Below, one piece after another: positions 26,425-36,079 of a DNA stretch of 64,000 nt. A program made the position numbers and the translations under genes. Each line of letters opens with the position of its first letter. The first letter of the stretch is position 1. This DNA comes from Halobaculum roseum (GTDB lineage Archaea > Halobacteriota > Halobacteria > Halobacteriales > Haloferacaceae): positions 1,630,521 through 1,694,520 of the forward strand of contig NZ_CP082286.1 of the NCBI RefSeq assembly GCF_019880245.1, written 5' to 3'. The notes below the pieces were generated by a model. The model made no database searches. It was not told the origin of the DNA and worked only from the letters and a program-made list of their open reading frames with translations.

Positions 26425-26484
26425 GGGTTGGGGTGGGGGTGGGGTTGGGGTTGGGGTGGGGGTGGGGTTGGGGTGGGGGTGGGG
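26425..26484. repeat. G-tract repeat (GGGGT/GGGGTT), G-quadruplex potential
   Basis: Sixty bases made almost wholly of runs of three to five G separated by one or two T on the plus strand. The tract begins 23 bases after the stop of the oxidoreductase gene and ends about 90 bases before the stop of the convergent DUF5518 gene. RNA from the upstream gene would carry the G-runs; RNA from the other gene would carry C-runs. Confidence 0.85.
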
Positions 26485-26575
26485 ATACAGGAACAAGCCA
26501 GTCGAGGAAGTCGCAGGGGCGGCTACCTCATGTGGCGAGCCGAGTCGGTCGTGCTCGCTGGCCCGGTTCGCAGTC

Positions 26576-27070
26576 TTAGCTCCGGTTCGGCTCCCCGATC
26601 GCGTCGTCGAACTCCGTCAACTCCGAACGGGGCTCGTCATCGGACTCAGACCGGTCGTCACGGAGCGTCGTCGGGTCGCCTGCTCGCGCCGGCGTCGAGT
26701 TCGGCCCGTCGAACTCCTCGTTGAGGAGCGCGCCGACGAGGCCGCCGACGGCGCCGAGGGCGCCACCGTACAGCGCGCCGACCAGCAGGAGCACGAGGAA
26801 CAGGGCGAACGCGACGAGCAGCCCCGAGCGCTGGCCGGGGCCGACGATGACGAAAACCGACGCGATCAGCGTCGCGACGACGGCGCCCGGAACCGCGGCC
26901 AGCAGACCCGAGAGCCCGCCGACTTTCGCGCCCTCCGTCCGGTCGGGGCCGTGGAGGTAGCCGGCGACGCCCCCGCCGATCACCGGGGAGAACGGCAGGA
27001 AGAACGTCACGAGCGAGACCGCGGCGCCGATAGCCGCGTGCTTCAGGGCGGTCGTGTTGGATGAGGACAT
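26576..27070 (-). CDS. DUF5518-type membrane protein
   Basis: 164 residues with about four hydrophobic stretches (10-32, 47-69, 72-98 and 95-118) full of Gly and Ala. PVIGGGVAGYLHGPDRTEGAKVGGLSGLLAAVPG is the glycine-rich repeat pattern of the haloarchaeal DUF5518 group, but the run is quoted only in part here because its core GGGVAGYL and GAKVGGLSG are the key residues. The C-terminal tail is acidic and disordered. A TATA box (27095-27103) sits 25 bases before ATG 27070, back to back with the pheST leader promoter. Function is unknown; the family looks like a small integral membrane protein. Confidence 0.78.
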   Translation of the reverse strand: MSSSNTTALKHAAIGAAVSLVTFFLPFSPVIGGGVAGYLHGPDRTEGAKVGGLSGLLAAVPGAVVATLIASVFVIVGPGQRSGLLVAFALFLVLLLVGALYGGALGAVGGLVGALLNEEFDGPNSTPARAGDPTTLRDDRSESDDEPRSELTEFDDAIGEPNRS

Positions 27071-27094
27071 GTCCGGTAGTTCGGTCGCCGATCG

Positions 27095-27103
27095 AATAAA
27101 TAG
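27095..27103 (-). promoter_or_regulatory. TATA box of the DUF5518 gene
   Basis: The minus strand reads CTATTTATT about 25 bases before ATG 27070, giving a leaderless transcript. It is separated by about 35 bases from the divergent pheST leader promoter. Confidence 0.55.
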
Positions 27104-27133
27104 CGCTGCGTGCAGAGCTATCACTCCGCAGCG

Positions 27134-27149
27134 ACCGAACGCTTTAGTC
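27134..27149 (+). promoter_or_regulatory. promoter of the pheST leader transcript
   Basis: ACCGAACGCTTTAGTC contains a BRE-like CCGAAC followed by GCTTTAGT (27141-27148). The usual spacing of about 25 bases puts the RNA start at about 27170, right at the leader-peptide ATG (27172) and 240 bases before pheS. The leader peptide would then be the first thing a ribosome reads on this RNA. Confidence 0.5.
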
Positions 27150-27171
27150 GACCCCGGTCCGTCTCCCCGAT

Positions 27172-27258
27172 ATGGCGACCGGACCCGCCGCGACGACGCA
27201 GGCACCGCACCCGACCACCGACGGGGACGGGTCCGGCTTCTTCTTCCCGCGCCGCTGA
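27172..27258 (+). CDS. candidate Phe-rich leader peptide of the pheST operon
   Basis: A 28-codon frame starts at the predicted RNA start and ends 149 bases before pheS. Its last residues are Gly-Phe-Phe-Phe-Pro-Arg-Arg-stop; the three TTC codons are at 27238-27246. The rest is rich in Thr, Pro, Ala and Gly, with no sign of a folded protein. Three adjacent codons for the very amino acid whose tRNA synthetase is encoded downstream is the signature of ribosome-sensing leaders such as bacterial pheM. Such control is not something I know to be established in archaea. GC hairpins follow directly. The frame and codons are seen; the regulatory role is inferred. Confidence 0.6.
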   Translation: MATGPAATTQAPHPTTDGDGSGFFFPRR

Positions 27259-27298
27259 CCCCGGCGGAACGCGGGGGCGACCGAGGGGTCGCCGCCGC
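27247..27298 (+). promoter_or_regulatory. two mutually exclusive hairpins after the Phe codons
   Basis: Hairpin B pairs CCCGCG (27247-27252) with CGCGGG (27270-27275), with an inner CCG/CGG, and spans the leader stop codon. Hairpin A pairs GCGGGGGCGACC (27271-27282) with GGTCGCCGCCGC (27287-27298): 11 of 12 pairs and a GAGG loop. They share bases 27271-27275, so only one can form at a time. B begins directly after the third Phe codon, where a stalled ribosome would mask it. No T-tract follows A, so the output may be factor-dependent termination or translation control. Confidence 0.45.
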
Positions 27299-27407
27299 GT
27301 GAAACCGACCCGGGTCGCTGCTGCGGGCATCGCCCGGCCCACGCCCGAGGGCGCGAGGCCGGAACGACACGACTAACCACCGACCGATCGGACACGAACA
27401 CAACCGA

Positions 27408-28904
27408 ATGCGACTCCCACAGGCGCAGGTCGCGTTGCTGGAGGCCGCCAGCGCGACCGACGCGAAGACGATCGAACAGCTCGCAGCCGAGACGGACCTG
27501 AAGCCCGAGACGGTCACTCGTGCCGCCTTCGACCTCCGCGACGAGGGGCTCGTCGCCGTCGACGAGCGCGTCGAGGAGTCTGCGACGCTCACCGACGAGG
27601 GCGAGACCTACCGGAGCGAGGGGCTCCCCGAGGTCCGCCTGTTCCGCGCCGCCCGCGACGCCGGCGGCGACGTGGGAATGGGCGAGGCGATCGGCGCCGC
27701 GGGGTTGGAGGGTCCCGAGGTCGACATCGCGCTCGCCAACTACGCCCGCAAGGGGTACGGCGTCGTCGACTCCGGGCAGGTCTCGGCGAACGATGACGCC
27801 GATCCGGACGACGACGACGAGGCCGCCGCGCTCGACGCGCTCGCTGCGGGCGAGGCAGTCGACGACGCGGCCCTGCTCGACCGGCTGGAGAGCCGCGGGC
27901 TCGTCGAGCTCGACGAGCGCACCGTCCGCTCCGTCACGCTCACCGACGACGGCGTGGACGCGCTGATGGCCGGCGTCGAGACCGCCGAGACCGTCGACCG
28001 GCTCACACCCGAACTGCTCACGAGCGGCGAGTGGGCGGACGTGGAGTTCGCCGAGTACAACGTCGAGGCGGACGCGCCGGCCGTCGAGGGGGGCCGCGAG
28101 CACGTCCTCCGCGGCATGTCCGAGCGCGTGAAGGACGTGCTGGTGGGGATGGGTTTCCAGGAGATGGACGGCCCGCACGCCGACGCGGACTTCTGGATCA
28201 ACGACTGCCTGTTCATGCCGCAGGACCACCCGGCGCGCACCCACTGGGACCGCTTCGCGCTCGACGTGCCGCCGGTGGCCGACCTCCCCGAGGGGCTGGT
28301 CGACCGCGTCGAGGCGGCCCACCGCGACGGCGTCGGCGAGGACGGCGACGGCTACCACTCGCCGTGGTCGGAGGACTTCGCGCGGGCGATCGCCCTGCGC
28401 GGGCACACCACCTCGCTGTCGATGCGCTACCTCTCCGGCTACGCGGACGCGGACCTGGAGCCGCCGAAGCGGTACTTCTCCGTCCAGAAGGCGTACCGCA
28501 ACGACACCCTCGACGCGACCCACCTGCTCGAGTTCTACCAGATCGAGGGATGGGTGATGGCCGAGGACCTCTCGGTGCGCGACCTCATGGGTACCTTCGA
28601 GGAGTTCTACCGGCAGTTCGGGATCGAGGAGATCCGCTTCAAGCCGCACTACAACCCCTACACGGAGCCCAGCTTCGAGCTGTTCGGCGAGCACCCCGAG
28701 ACGGGCGAGGAGATCGAGATCGGGAACTCGGGCATGTTCCGCGACGAGGTGCTCGACCCGCTCGGGATCGACTGCGACGTGATGGCGTGGGGACTCGCGC
28801 TGGAACGGCTCGCGATGCTCACGACGGGCGCGGAGGACATCCGCGACCTACACGGGACGCTCGCTGACCTGGAGTTCCTGCGGAACGCGGAGGTGACCTA
28901 CTGA
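27408..28904 (+). CDS. pheS: phenylalanyl-tRNA synthetase alpha subunit
   Basis: 498 residues, the archaeal-type long alpha subunit. Residues 1-160 hold tandem winged-helix domains (LLEAASATDAKTIEQLAAE, TRAAFDLRDEGLVAVDE) that contact DNA or tRNA, with an acidic linker (DDADPDDDDE). The catalytic class II domain follows: motif 1 near VKDVLVGMGFQEMDGP, motif 2 in KRYFSVQKAYRNDT ... LLEFYQIEGW, and motif 3 GLALERLAML. The enzyme charges tRNA-Phe as an (alpha-beta)2 tetramer. pheT follows with a one-base stop/start overlap. Upstream sits the candidate Phe leader. Confidence 0.97.
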   Translation: MRLPQAQVALLEAASATDAKTIEQLAAETDLKPETVTRAAFDLRDEGLVAVDERVEESATLTDEGETYRSEGLPEVRLFRAARDAGGDVGMGEAIGAAGLEGPEVDIALANYARKGYGVVDSGQVSANDDADPDDDDEAAALDALAAGEAVDDAALLDRLESRGLVELDERTVRSVTLTDDGVDALMAGVETAETVDRLTPELLTSGEWADVEFAEYNVEADAPAVEGGREHVLRGMSERVKDVLVGMGFQEMDGPHADADFWINDCLFMPQDHPARTHWDRFALDVPPVADLPEGLVDRVEAAHRDGVGEDGDGYHSPWSEDFARAIALRGHTTSLSMRYLSGYADADLEPPKRYFSVQKAYRNDTLDATHLLEFYQIEGWVMAEDLSVRDLMGTFEEFYRQFGIEEIRFKPHYNPYTEPSFELFGEHPETGEEIEIGNSGMFRDEVLDPLGIDCDVMAWGLALERLAMLTTGAEDIRDLHGTLADLEFLRNAEVTY

Positions 28905-30712
28905 TGCCAGTCGTCGACATCGACACCGACGAGCTTCGAGGATTGACCGGCGAGGAGAGCAAGAGCGACGAGGAGTTCAAGGAGGACCTGTTCGCGCTCG
29001 GGCTGGAGTACGAGGGCGACACCGACGACGGCCTGCTCCAGTTCGAGTTCGGCCCCGACCGGCTCGACCGCCTGTCGGTCGAGGGCGTCGCGCGGTCGCT
29101 GCGCTACCAGTACGGCGCCGACCGCGGCGTGTACGTCCCGAACACGAACGACGCCGGCTGGACCATCGAGGTCGACCCCTCCGTCCCGGACGAGCGCCCG
29201 TACGTCACGGGCGCGGTCGTCCGGGGCGTCGAGCTCGGCGAGTCCGGCCTCGACTCGCTGATCCAGCTGCAGGAGAAGCTGCACGCGACGATGGGGCGGG
29301 GGCGCGCGAAGGGCGCCATCGGCGTCCACGACCTCACGATGCTGAAGGGCCAAGCCCTGACGGAGGAGTCCGAGCCCTCCGGTACCATCGACGCCGCCAC
29401 CGCCGATCTGGGCGCGACCGAGAAGACGATCACCTACCGCGGCGTCGAGCCCGACGGCGACCGGTTCGTCCCGCTGGACGCCAACGCGGAGATGACGCCC
29501 GCGGAGGTGCTGGCGGAGCACGACACCGGCGAGACGTACGCCGATCTGGTCGATGGTCTGGATCGCTACCCCGCGATCTACGACGAACTGGGGCTGTTCT
29601 CGTTCCCGCCGGTGATCAACGGGAAGCGCACGGAGGTCGACACCGACTCCCGCGATCTCTTCATCGAGCTGACCGGGACCGACCAGTGGACCATCGACAA
29701 GATGTGCGTCATCCTCTGTTATGCCCTCTCGGCGCGCGGCGGCACCGTCGAGGAGGTGCAGGTCGACTACACGGACGGCGCGACGTACCCCGACGAGTAC
29801 GGCCCGGAGCTGATCCGGCCGGACCTCGACACCGACGAGAAGTCCGTCACCCACGAGCGCATCGAGACGATGCTCGGGATCGAGTTGGAGCGCGAGGAGG
29901 TCGTCGACCTGTTCGAGCGCTCGGGCCTCGACGCCGCCTACAGCCTGGGCGAGGAGGAAACCGTCTACGACGTGGAGGTCCCGCCGTACCGCGTCGACGT
30001 GCTCCACCCGCTGGACCTGATCGACGACGTGGGACGGGCGTACGGCTTCAACGAGTTGGAGCCGACGTACCCCGACATCGGTACCATCGGCGGTCGCCAC
30101 GAGCGCTCGCGGCTGGAGCGTGCGGTGCGCACGAGCCTCGTCGGCCTCGGCTTCGAGGACATGCTGAACTTCCACATGACCTCCGCCGAGGAGAACTACG
30201 ACCGGCTGCGCCTCGACGAGCGCGACCCCGGCGCCGACCTGTCGGAGGCGCCCCTCGGGAGCGAGCCGCGGGCGGAGATCACCAGCCCGTACAGCGAGGA
30301 CTACACCCAACTGCGCACGTGGGCGCTCCCCTCGCTCGTGCAGGTGCTGGAGAACAACACCCACCGGAGCTACCCGCAGGACCTCGCGGAGGTCGGCTTC
30401 GTCGCCCACCGCGACGATGAGGTGAACACCCGCGTCGCCGAGGACTACCGCGTCGCCGGCGCGCTCGCGCGCACCGACGCGACCTACGAGGACGCGAAGG
30501 CCCGCCTCCAGGCCGTCTGCGACGACTTCGACGCGGACCTGGAGACGCCCGCGACGGAGCACCCGAGCTTCCTCGACGGACGCGTCGCCGAGGTCGTGAT
30601 CGACGGCGACGCGGTCGGCGTCGTGGGCGAACTCCACCCCGAGGTGCTGGTCGACCGGGACATGGAGGTCCCCGTCGCGGCCTTCGAGTTCTCGCTGTCG
30701 GTGCTTGCGTAG
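28904..30712 (+). CDS. pheT: phenylalanyl-tRNA synthetase beta subunit
   Basis: 602 residues, archaeal length and lacking the bacterial N-terminal EMAP-like and C-terminal anticodon-binding extras. The N-terminal VVDIDTDELRGLTG starts domain B1. The B3/B4 editing domain (about 90-270) includes RGVELGESGLDSLIQLQEKLH and the FPPVINGKRTEVDTDS loop, and the B5 DNA-binding-like domain is around 300-365. The catalytic-like domain with DDVGRAYGFNELEPTYP, DMLNFHMTS and VGELHPEVLVDRDMEVPVAAFE closes the protein. It contributes tRNA binding and mischarged Tyr editing. The ATG overlaps the pheS TGA, so translation is coupled. Confidence 0.97.
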   Translation: MPVVDIDTDELRGLTGEESKSDEEFKEDLFALGLEYEGDTDDGLLQFEFGPDRLDRLSVEGVARSLRYQYGADRGVYVPNTNDAGWTIEVDPSVPDERPYVTGAVVRGVELGESGLDSLIQLQEKLHATMGRGRAKGAIGVHDLTMLKGQALTEESEPSGTIDAATADLGATEKTITYRGVEPDGDRFVPLDANAEMTPAEVLAEHDTGETYADLVDGLDRYPAIYDELGLFSFPPVINGKRTEVDTDSRDLFIELTGTDQWTIDKMCVILCYALSARGGTVEEVQVDYTDGATYPDEYGPELIRPDLDTDEKSVTHERIETMLGIELEREEVVDLFERSGLDAAYSLGEEETVYDVEVPPYRVDVLHPLDLIDDVGRAYGFNELEPTYPDIGTIGGRHERSRLERAVRTSLVGLGFEDMLNFHMTSAEENYDRLRLDERDPGADLSEAPLGSEPRAEITSPYSEDYTQLRTWALPSLVQVLENNTHRSYPQDLAEVGFVAHRDDEVNTRVAEDYRVAGALARTDATYEDAKARLQAVCDDFDADLETPATEHPSFLDGRVAEVVIDGDAVGVVGELHPEVLVDRDMEVPVAAFEFSLSVLA

Positions 30713-33251: not shown

Positions 33252-33437
33252 TCGGTCGGCGCGTGTCGTCCCGCGATCGATTGATTTGACGAGGGTTCGC
33301 GGGAGTACCCGCGACGAGAGCTTCGTTCTCGCCCCCGGATCGAGCACCACGAGCAGCAGCGAGATCCATCCAACGCCGTGACACGACGTATCGAGCGACC
33401 ACAGCCCCTATACCCGAACCACCCGCCGGTACACACA

Positions 33438-34475
33438 ATGAACGCGACACTCGACGGCGACGTGGTCCGCGCGGCGGGCGACGCGCGCCAGCGGTTCCAC
33501 GACGCCCGGGGGTACGGCCGCGCGTCGGGGCCCGACGTAACCCTCGCACGGGTGGAGGCTGCCCATCTGCTGTATCGCGGCGACATCGACTCGGTCTCGG
33601 GGATGGACTTCCGGGCGTTCTTCCGCGACAGCGTCGCCGGCGAGTCCGGCTTCGCCGCCCGGTTTCTGGTGTACGCAGACCTGCGCGAGCGGGGCTTCTA
33701 TCTCGCCCCCGCCCGCGACGGCTGGCCGGGGAGCGCGGACGGACGCGCCGGCGACGCCGACATCCTCGTGTTCGAGCGCGGCGAGAAGCCCGGCGGCCCG
33801 GTCGCCCATCGCGTCCGCGTCGTCGGCGAACGCGAGGAGCTGGCGGCCGCGTCGCTGGGGGGACGAACGCTCGCCGTCGTCGACGAGGAGAGCGAGGTGT
33901 CGTACTTCGCGTGCACGGCCGACGGCGGGTTCGACGGGCGAACCGAGTACGACCTGCCCGCCGGCCTCGACGCCGACCTGCTCGACGACCGCGTCGTCTG
34001 CTGGTCGCCGCCGGCCGACCTGTACGAGTCGGCGTTCTACGGCCAGCCGATCTCCGGGCGCGACGACGCCGACGTCGACGCCCTCCAGCTGTCGCTGGTC
34101 GAGGCCGCCGACCTGGCCGCCCGCGGCGCCGTCGACCTCGACGCCGACGCGGTGATCGAGCGCGGGCGGGCGGTCGAGGGCGAGCGGTTCGACCGCCGTC
34201 TGTCGGTGTATCGCGAGCTTCGCGACCGCGGCGTCGTCCCCAAGACGGGCTACAAGTTCGGCGCCGACTTCCGGACCTACGACGCCGTGGAGACGGTGAC
34301 GGACCTCCCGCACTCCGAGCGACTCGTCCGGGTGGTGCAGCCGGACCACCGCTTCCACCCCCGCGAGTTGGCGCTCGACGTGCGACTGGCCGGCGGCGTG
34401 CGGAAGGGAATGGTTTTTGCGCTCGCCGGCGACGACTCGAACGACTACCTGACGGTCGAGCGACTCACCCCATGA
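33438..34475 (+). CDS. endA: tRNA-splicing endonuclease EndA
   Basis: 345 residues, twice the length of the alpha4-type enzyme, so a two-repeat alpha2 form. The C-terminal repeat carries the catalytic triad: Tyr in TGYKFGADFRTY, His in VQPDHRFHPREL and Lys in GGVRKGMVFAL. The N-terminal repeat (VEAAHLLYRGDIDSV ... ARFLVYADLRERGFYLAP) has lost these and is structural. The enzyme excises archaeal tRNA and rRNA introns at bulge-helix-bulge motifs. Its stop overlaps the trpS start by 4 bases (ATGA). Haloarchaeal pre-tRNA-Trp is a known intron-containing substrate, so this pairing is meaningful. Confidence 0.95.
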   Translation: MNATLDGDVVRAAGDARQRFHDARGYGRASGPDVTLARVEAAHLLYRGDIDSVSGMDFRAFFRDSVAGESGFAARFLVYADLRERGFYLAPARDGWPGSADGRAGDADILVFERGEKPGGPVAHRVRVVGEREELAAASLGGRTLAVVDEESEVSYFACTADGGFDGRTEYDLPAGLDADLLDDRVVCWSPPADLYESAFYGQPISGRDDADVDALQLSLVEAADLAARGAVDLDADAVIERGRAVEGERFDRRLSVYRELRDRGVVPKTGYKFGADFRTYDAVETVTDLPHSERLVRVVQPDHRFHPRELALDVRLAGGVRKGMVFALAGDDSNDYLTVERLTP

Positions 34476-36079
34476 GCGACGACAACACCGGCCCCGTACG
34501 GGGCACCGACGAAGCCGAAGCCGACAGCGAGGAGCAACGAGCGCGAACCGACGGTGGCGTCGCGCTCGATCCGTGGGGCTCGGCGACCGTCGCCGACTAC
34601 CGCGAACTGTTCGAGGAGTTCGGCATCGAGGCGTTCGAGGAGATCATCGACGAGGTGCCCGAGCCGCACTACCTGATGCGCCGCGGCGTCATCTTCGGCC
34701 ACCGCGACTACGGCGCCGTCGCCCGCGCGCTCGCGAACGACGAGCCCGCGGCAGCCCTCTCGGGGTTCATGCCCACCGGCGACCCCCACATCGGCCACAA
34801 GCTCGTGTTCGACGAGCTGATCTACCACCAGGAGCAGGGTGCCGACACCTACGGCCTCATCGCGGACCTGGAGGCCCACTCCGCCCGCGGGATGACGTGG
34901 GAGGAGATCGACGAGCACGCCCGCGACTACCTGCTCTCGCTGCTCGCGCTCGGGTTCGACCCCGAGGAGGGCGAGCTGTACCGCCAGTCCACGAACCGCC
35001 GGCTGCAGGACCTCGCGTTCGAGTTGGGATCGAACGCCCGGTTCGCGGAGTTCGAGTCGATCTACGGCTTCGACGGCGGCACCTCCGTCTCGCACATGCA
35101 GTCGGTCGTCACCCAGATGGCGGACATCCTCTACCCGCAGCTGGACGAGCCGAAGCCGACCGTGATCCCGGTCGGTCCGGATCAGGACCCGCACGTCCGC
35201 TTCTCGCGGGACATCGCCCGCAAGACGCGCTACTTCAAGGTGACCGAGGCGTTCGCCAGCCCGGAGTTCGACGCCGCCGAGCGCGTGCTCGTCCGCCGGG
35301 CCCACGACGAGCGCGAGGCGTGGGCCGACGACCCCGAGACGCCGCGGTGTGAGGACGCCGCCGCGTGGCTCGCCGACGCCGAGGTGGACGCCGAGTTCGA
35401 GTCCGCCCGCGCGGGCGCCGTCGAGAAGCTGGAGAACGCCGGGATGGAGCCGCTTCGTCCCAGAACCAGGTTCCTCGACCGCAACGCCGACGAGGCCGCC
35501 TTCGAGGCGCTCATCGAGGCGGTTCCCGGCGAGAAGCGCGTCTTCGACGCCCACATCGACTCCTTCGAGTTGGACCGCGAGGACGCCGAGGAGCTGGCCC
35601 GCGAGGTCGAGGTCGACAACGGCGGCTTCGGCTTCTACACGCCCTCCTCGATCTACCACCGGTTCATGACCGGCCTCACCGGCGGGAAGATGTCCTCGTC
35701 CATCGAGGCGAGCCACATCTCGCTGCTCGACGACCCCGAGGAGGGGTACGACAAGGTGAAGTCGGCGACGACCGGCGGCCGCGAGACGGCCGAGAAGCAG
35801 CGCGAACTCGGCGGCGAGGCCGACGAGTGCCCGGTGTACGAGCTGTACGCGTACCTGCTGGCGAACGACGACGACGGCTTCGCCGAGGAAGTGTACGAGG
35901 AGTGCGTCGGCGGCGAGCGCCTCTGTGGCGACTGCAAGGAGCAGGCGGCGACGCTGATGAAGGAGTTCCTCGCGGACCACCAGGAGAAGCGCGAGGAGGC
36001 GAAGGAGCTGCTCGCGGAGCTGGACATCGACCTTGACGTCGACGCCTCGCGGCGGGGGATCCCCGGCGAGGAGGAGTAG
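34472..36079 (+). CDS. trpS: tryptophanyl-tRNA synthetase
   Basis: 535 residues of the archaeal/eukaryal class Ic type. The HIGH-like motif is SGFMPTGDPHIGHKLVFDEL, and the KMSKS-like loop is GGKMSSSIEASHI. PVGPDQDPHVRFSRDIA and FYTPSSIYHRFMTGLTGG are active-site segments. An acidic tail of about 35 residues precedes the core, and an insert (about 270-370, with REAWADDPETPRCEDAAAWLADAEVD) is a lineage-specific expansion typical of haloarchaeal enzymes. CGDCKEQAATLMKEFL near the end is conserved. It overlaps endA by 4 bases. A hairpin (36081-36105) follows within 2 bases of the stop. Confidence 0.96.
   Translation: MSDDNTGPVRGTDEAEADSEEQRARTDGGVALDPWGSATVADYRELFEEFGIEAFEEIIDEVPEPHYLMRRGVIFGHRDYGAVARALANDEPAAALSGFMPTGDPHIGHKLVFDELIYHQEQGADTYGLIADLEAHSARGMTWEEIDEHARDYLLSLLALGFDPEEGELYRQSTNRRLQDLAFELGSNARFAEFESIYGFDGGTSVSHMQSVVTQMADILYPQLDEPKPTVIPVGPDQDPHVRFSRDIARKTRYFKVTEAFASPEFDAAERVLVRRAHDEREAWADDPETPRCEDAAAWLADAEVDAEFESARAGAVEKLENAGMEPLRPRTRFLDRNADEAAFEALIEAVPGEKRVFDAHIDSFELDREDAEELAREVEVDNGGFGFYTPSSIYHRFMTGLTGGKMSSSIEASHISLLDDPEEGYDKVKSATTGGRETAEKQRELGGEADECPVYELYAYLLANDDDGFAEEVYEECVGGERLCGDCKEQAATLMKEFLADHQEKREEAKELLAELDIDLDVDASRRGIPGEEE

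Follow-up and report, generated by a model that had tools for sequence, protein, structure and literature searches.

Leader frame upstream of pheST

We analyzed a 64,000-nt stretch of the Halobaculum roseum chromosome (contig NZ_CP082286.1), referred to below as the window. In it the genes pheS and pheT, coding for the two subunits of phenylalanyl-tRNA synthetase (PheRS), are preceded by a short frame that ends with TTC TTC TTC, then CCG CGC CGC TGA; 149 bases lie between its stop codon and the pheS ATG (Table 1). A preliminary description of the locus had pointed to a 28-codon frame ending in Phe-Phe-Phe in front of pheST; coordinates and codons were verified, and protein family models agreed with the identity of both genes. 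A search of the leader peptide against Pfam gave no match. Divergent from the leader is a DUF5518 gene (window positions 26576-27070, minus strand), and an intergenic simple repeat run of the GGGTGGGGGTGGG type, visible only through Gly/Trp/Val repeats of the frames, is situated at ~26428-26490.

Table 1. Features of the pheST locus in the window (window positions)
Feature	Positions	Strand	Remarks
Promoter P1 (BRE AACG and TATA-like CTTTAG)	27135..27147	+	-37 to -25 from leader ATG
Leader frame MATGPAATTQAPHPTTDGDGSGFFFPRR, then stop	27172..27258	+	predicted start at RNA 5' end; 28 codons
Helix A, 5' strand, CCGGACCCG (leader nt 8-16)	27179..27187	+	covariation; centroid fold of window
Helix A, 3' strand, CGGGTCCGG	27228..27236	+	directly 5' of Phe codons; covariation, centroid fold
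Three Phe codons TTC TTC TTC	27238..27246	+	proposed tRNA-Phe sensor
Hairpin C around stop codon (GCCG-CTGACCC-CGGC)	27251..27265	+	overlaps motif B 5' strand
Motif B: CGGCGGA 27262-27268, variable hairpin 27269-27300, GAAACCG 27301-27307	27262..27307	+	covariation
Candidate P2 of pheS (GGAACG...ACTAAC)	27361..27377	+	~36 nt before pheS ATG
pheS, Phe-tRNA ligase alpha subunit	27408..28904	+	NCBIfam NF003210, 590.8 bits; also TIGR00468
pheT, Phe-tRNA ligase beta subunit	28904..30712	+	NCBIfam TIGR00471, 415.4 bits

It had been argued that such an arrangement is unlikely to occur by chance, and the count supports this. On both strands of the organism's own chromosome (2.84 Mb) just seven frames carried F.FFF or FFF near the stop codon; the pheS leader was the sole one with both a good promoter and a cognate gene downstream, and its P1 score was the highest of any Phe-run small frame in the 2.84 Mb.

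Conservation of the leader across haloarchaea

Relatives provide a stronger test of chance. A Phe-run leader was present upstream of pheS in 63 of 81 haloarchaeal loci (80 fetched pheS loci and the window) as well as in 17 of 20 pheS loci of a later set from other genera and families; 18 pheS loci were devoid of the entire leader cassette. Since the leaders of relatives were chosen by the presence of at least two Phe in the last nine codons, the Phe counts are no independent evidence; the choice made no use of the promoter, its spacing, helix A or motif B.

The leaders were 23-30 codons long, with the usual tail GFGFFF followed by 0-4 lineage-specific codons. Codon positions 1 and 2 of the tail were conserved and position 3 was variable (GGN; TTT/TTC). 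The N-terminal codons were kept at nucleotide level (GAA 51, GAG 3). The frame was open through the Phe run and closed a few codons later, whatever the loop length. Lack of conservation of the short frame or of its Phe codons would have spoken against the original proposal; in relatives both were conserved. The preliminary description had asked whether a Phe-Phe-Phe-Pro-Arg-Arg end is conserved; the Phe run was, but Pro-Arg-Arg was not, as the tail differs by lineage.

Two further ideas about the codons of the run were not upheld. TTT made up 24% in leaders versus 4% in pheS, but other two-fold codons were relaxed in leaders too (TTT against relaxed two-fold codons, Fisher p = 0.086), leaving no case for special TTT use at the sensor. 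For programmed frameshifting at UUC runs, a slippery heptamer shared among the leaders was lacking; the window reads TTC TTC TTC.

At one locus from a metagenome-assembled genome (L105) promoter, helix A and motif B were kept with the UUC run out of frame, possibly due to a sequencing error, or else the leader is naturally broken. In Haloferax marinum (L072) FFF is followed at once by the stop codon. The LTA codons are thereby lost, but their bases are retained, along with a hairpin that they form with the post-stop region; the spacing from Phe run to motif B (see below) is within the usual range.

Across the full leader we saw no excess of third-position changes; judging by these codon comparisons, coding selection is limited to the leader start and the tail. 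One could suppose that the frame is a small protein gene merely neighbouring pheS, whose peptide is itself functional. Conservation of the start and the tail would agree with that, and the corresponding Haloferax volcanii frame is listed among possible small proteins in PMC4983044. This explanation is barely credible to us, however, given that the peptide lacks conservation in its middle part, an overall third-position excess and a Pfam match are both missing, residues change in ways that preserve RNA pairing (see below), and the leader invariably goes together with motif B and pheS.

Promoters and transcription start

The P1 element AACGCTTTAG (27138-27147) has the spacing expected of a leaderless transcript. 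Spacing of P1 (consensus ~CGnAACGyTTTT) to the leader ATG was fixed in the 63 leaders, and the base at -1 of the ATG was a pyrimidine in 58 of them, in keeping with transcription starting at the leader ATG itself; the ATG stood at the predicted RNA start in 62 of 63 cases. By these signals the P1 RNA should have its 5' end at the leader ATG, a start that in the window is predicted from sequence alone.

Differential RNA-seq data exist for Haloferax volcanii. Table 2 of Babski et al. (2016, PMC4983044) assigns pheS (HVO_2948) a 5' UTR of 150-250 nt that contains a 26-aa upstream frame (pI 5.9, 2772 Da). It gives pheS a single distant start site and no additional TSS at the gene. A pheS RNA starting downstream of the leader would have refuted the original proposal; in Hfx. 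volcanii the mapped TSS lies far upstream instead. Five Haloferax leaders in our set had 26 aa as well, with MW 2792-2850 (versus 2772 reported) and pI 5.94 in three species; the Hfx. volcanii leader sequence itself was absent from the fetched set, which accounts for the small mass gap. The 26-aa frame of PMC4983044 is very probably the orthologous leader.

A P2-like element (GGAAC.G.TAAC) was seen in pheS loci with a leader and also in the 18 loci without one. From its sequence and position P2 is likely a second, pheS-proximal promoter, so that control at P1 need not cover all pheS expression; transcription of pheS from P2 may be independent of P1. Taken further, P2 could be the main pheS promoter, with P1, leader and motif B making a separate short transcript of little effect on pheST. 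The occurrence of P2-like elements regardless of the leader fits this possibility; still, it is very unlikely, as only the distant TSS and none at pheS was reported in Hfx. volcanii (PMC4983044), and conservation of the whole cassette would be left unexplained.

No hairpin followed by a U-tract was found in window positions 26900-27500, nor by eye in relatives; simple intrinsic termination is therefore unlikely.

Helix A

Codons 3-6 of the leader pair with the codons immediately 5' of the Phe run (helix A). Pairing was observed in 80-100% of loci per position, with covariation at leader nt 11, 13, 14 and 16. In the window's clade an A-U pair is replaced by G-C (codons GGA and TCC), changing the peptide from E to G together with F to S; this compensatory change is the reason why the window has GSG where most relatives have GFG. 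In Halorubrum a C-G to G-C replacement changes P to R together with G to A. Further compensatory changes were C-G to U-A and G-C to C-G; the later 17 leaders all keep helix A, and two of them show a C-G to G-C change not met in the first set. The residue before Gly-Phe-Phe-Phe (Ser in the window, Phe in most relatives) is dictated by helix A pairing, so only the final Phe codons look like a sensor.

Run on full leaders, RNAalifold recovered helix A along with motif B for four clades out of five (the Haloferax, Natrialbaceae, Halorubrum and Haladaptatus-like sets); in the Halobaculum clade, with n=4 sequences only, helix A was not cleanly recovered. The single-sequence fold of the window region contains both helix A and motif B (z = -2.1).

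Motif B

Past the leader stop begins motif B, with consensus CGGYGGA-hairpin-GAAACCG. By ungapped pairing counts positions 2-7 of the hairpin were paired at 86-93% of loci, with many two-sided changes; the covariation score of motif B was 0.408, versus 0.138 for shuffled and 0.05-0.15 for slid controls (MAFFT alignment of 35 sequences). A covariance model matched the window at 27257-27314 with 34.2 bits. The model matched leader loci; in front of pheS at the 18 loci lacking a leader it gave nothing. Among its matches in 97 genomes, all 16 with a known pheS position were just upstream of pheS. In the organism's own genome no additional strong copy was found: the next-best match scored 24.9 bits, and none of the others had the GGYGGA...GAAACC core.

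Rfam gave no match up to E-value 1 for the window region and up to 0.5 for seven relatives, T-box included. K-turn and T-box readings of motif B were rejected, since its internal loop is symmetric and no Rfam match was found. We also rejected the idea that the leader Phe codons pair with the GAAACCG strand, as the actual codons scored no better than synonymous recodings (mean percentile 0.49). Both helix A and motif B covary and are new in this work; motif B is a candidate for a new structured RNA family.

The GAA of motif B is invariant; it is followed by A, preceded mostly by C or U, and faces an invariant GGA across an internal loop. The resulting YGAAA resembles the anticodon loop of tRNA-Phe (U33-G34-A35-A36-A37), and motif B was found only at pheS, so one might propose that PheRS controls its own synthesis by binding motif B, with the leader peptide being secondary. 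There is a bacterial precedent in E. coli, where ThrRS binds the mRNA that encodes it. We regard such autogenous control as unlikely: GAA, opposite GGA, belongs to an internal rather than a hairpin loop, and the Phe run, the leader start at the RNA 5' end and the constant distance between Phe codons and motif B would have no explanation.

Spacing between Phe codons, stop codon and motif B

Between the last Phe codon and the GGY of motif B there were 18-19 nt in 41 out of 59 loci; the sd of this distance was 1.23. The distance from the leader stop to motif B, 4-12 nt, was more variable (sd 2.24). Where more codons follow the last Phe, the stop lies closer to motif B, and vice versa (r = -0.87, p = 4e-19); hence, the position of the Phe codon relative to motif B is the conserved quantity. 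By general footprint sizes, a ribosome with a Phe codon in the A site would cover the 3' strand of helix A and end a few bases before motif B, and one at the leader stop would lie over motif B's 5' strand.

Hairpin C is weak in the window (-4.1 kcal/mol, not below the shuffled value of -4.8); it reaches -8.7 kcal/mol in most Haloferax and down to -12.5 kcal/mol in Natrialbaceae. It is lineage-dependent and not universal; 40 of the 59 loci exceeded their shuffles in stability. In many Haloferax and Natrialbaceae leaders some of its bases also belong to the 5' side of motif B.

The strength of helix A and motif B, the precedence of helix A over the peptide sequence, the N-terminal codons kept at nucleotide level (as GAA, in the main) and the survival of the structures in L105 despite its broken frame may all suggest a structured-RNA regulator, riboswitch-like or protein-bound, that acts with no ribosome; the frame would then be a by-product and the pyrimidine run an RNA linker. 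We find this quite unlikely. The ATG nearly always stands at the predicted RNA start, the frame remains open through the Phe run despite differences in loop length, sensor codons swap TTT and TTC, and both a TSS and an upstream frame are reported in Hfx. volcanii (PMC4983044).

Trp-codon leader of trpS2

Table 2 of PMC4983044 also lists a 23-aa upstream frame for HVO_A0127 (tryptophan--tRNA ligase). In three Haloferax genomes (loci L135, L136 and L137) a leader of 23 codons, for example MVSTSRATCWRWQAFWEVDSIAV, stands in front of trpS2, ~165-90 bases from its ATG. The CWRW core recurred before trpS2 in Haloferax larsenii, Haloferax mediterranei and Natronorubrum aibiense records, and a shorter leader with one Trp (VSTSRETDERRWR) was seen in Natrinema, Haloprofundus and a Haloferacaceae record. 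The Trp codons are flanked by an inverted repeat, TCCACTTCC / GGAAGTGGA, with no covariation test behind it. The gene trpS2 was present in 79 of 242 genomes, and additional loci were drawn from plasmid records; before two Halobaculum trpS2 genes no such leader was found. Existence of a Trp leader at trpS2 makes an isolated coincidence at pheS less likely.

A scan of the organism's own chromosome (2.84 Mb; 13 synthetase/amino-acid genes) yielded no other convincing cognate-codon leader, and the chromosomal trpS (window 34472-36079) is without one. The latter gene is directly behind an endA-like tRNA splicing endonuclease gene (33378-34475).

Discussion

Leader frame, promoter, RNA structures, spacing and their co-occurrence were observed in the sequences themselves. 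We interpret them as a cis-acting, ribosome-sensing control that tunes PheRS to the level of charged tRNA-Phe, with a probability of about 0.7; no expression or ribosome data on the response to Phe are available. Regulation by charged tRNA-Phe is inferred, and so are ribosome stalling, the RNA switch with its direction, and the output step discussed below. Points that weigh against this interpretation are the missing terminator, the possible independence of P2, the 18 loci devoid of the cassette, the out-of-frame Phe run of L105, the weakness of hairpin C in the window, the unclean recovery of helix A in the Halobaculum clade and the lack of comparable leaders at other amino-acid genes scanned in the same chromosome.

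The proposed mechanism is as follows. RNA from P1 would start at the leader ATG, its last leader codons being the Phe run. With charged tRNA-Phe scarce, a ribosome would stall on the Phe codons, breaking helix A, whose 3' strand would be just upstream within the ribosome, and masking the post-Phe codons, which would otherwise pair with the 5' strand of motif B (hairpin C, in many lineages). Motif B, 18-19 nt downstream, would be left free to fold. With tRNA-Phe plentiful, the ribosome would reach the stop codon, helix A and hairpin C could form, and motif B would be occupied or outcompeted. Folded motif B would be the ON state for pheST; its output could be readthrough of the P1 RNA past a factor-dependent premature end, or an effect on stability or translation of the long mRNA. 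The output step on pheST is the weakest point of the leader model, and the mode of action is unproven. We also lean, with somewhat less assurance, towards the broader statement that in haloarchaea ribosome-mediated attenuation on leaderless mRNAs controls pheST (by Phe) and trpS2 (by Trp) via a previously undescribed helix A/motif B switch that needs no intrinsic terminator.

Leader-peptide attenuation is a textbook bacterial device. Like pheM-pheST, pheL, trpL and hisL of E. coli, the haloarchaeal locus has a short, presumably translated frame in which cognate codons follow one another ahead of the operon, adjoining RNA structures and constant geometry between codons and structure. Unlike these systems, it has the leader on a predicted leaderless mRNA, likely a second promoter, and no intrinsic terminator that could be seen, with motif B and its internal loop in place of the terminator/antiterminator pair. 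Since an intrinsic terminator was not found and the charging response is untested, we do not class the leader as an attenuator of the pheM/trpL/hisL kind; archaeal termination at the leader could be factor-dependent. T-box leaders are similar in that leader RNA controls synthetases by tRNA charging (as proposed here for pheST); the pheS leader, however, has no T-box or other Rfam match, and its codons are within a frame presumed to be translated. In the autogenous operator of E. coli thrS, too, a structured RNA precedes a synthetase gene and carries anticodon-like letters; in haloarchaea such letters belong to an internal loop and are accompanied by a coding leader.

The nearest described case is the upstream frame of HVO_2948 (Babski et al. 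2016, PMC4983044), alike in gene, length (26 aa), pI (5.9) and TSS position (150-250 nt upstream). That paper treats it as a small protein or uORF; the part consulted does not describe the Phe run, the RNA structures or the conservation. A described archaeal ribosome-mediated attenuator was not found in the literature searched, which left out most subscription papers.

Within that literature, the pheST leader, if our interpretation is true, would be the first archaeal case of ribosome-mediated attenuation. Haloferax volcanii is genetically tractable and has both a reported pheS upstream frame and a mapped start site. A conserved case in such an organism would allow direct tests of whether archaea sense amino-acid supply by means of the translating ribosome, whether archaeal transcription and translation are coupled tightly enough for attenuation, and how premature termination could proceed without an intrinsic terminator.
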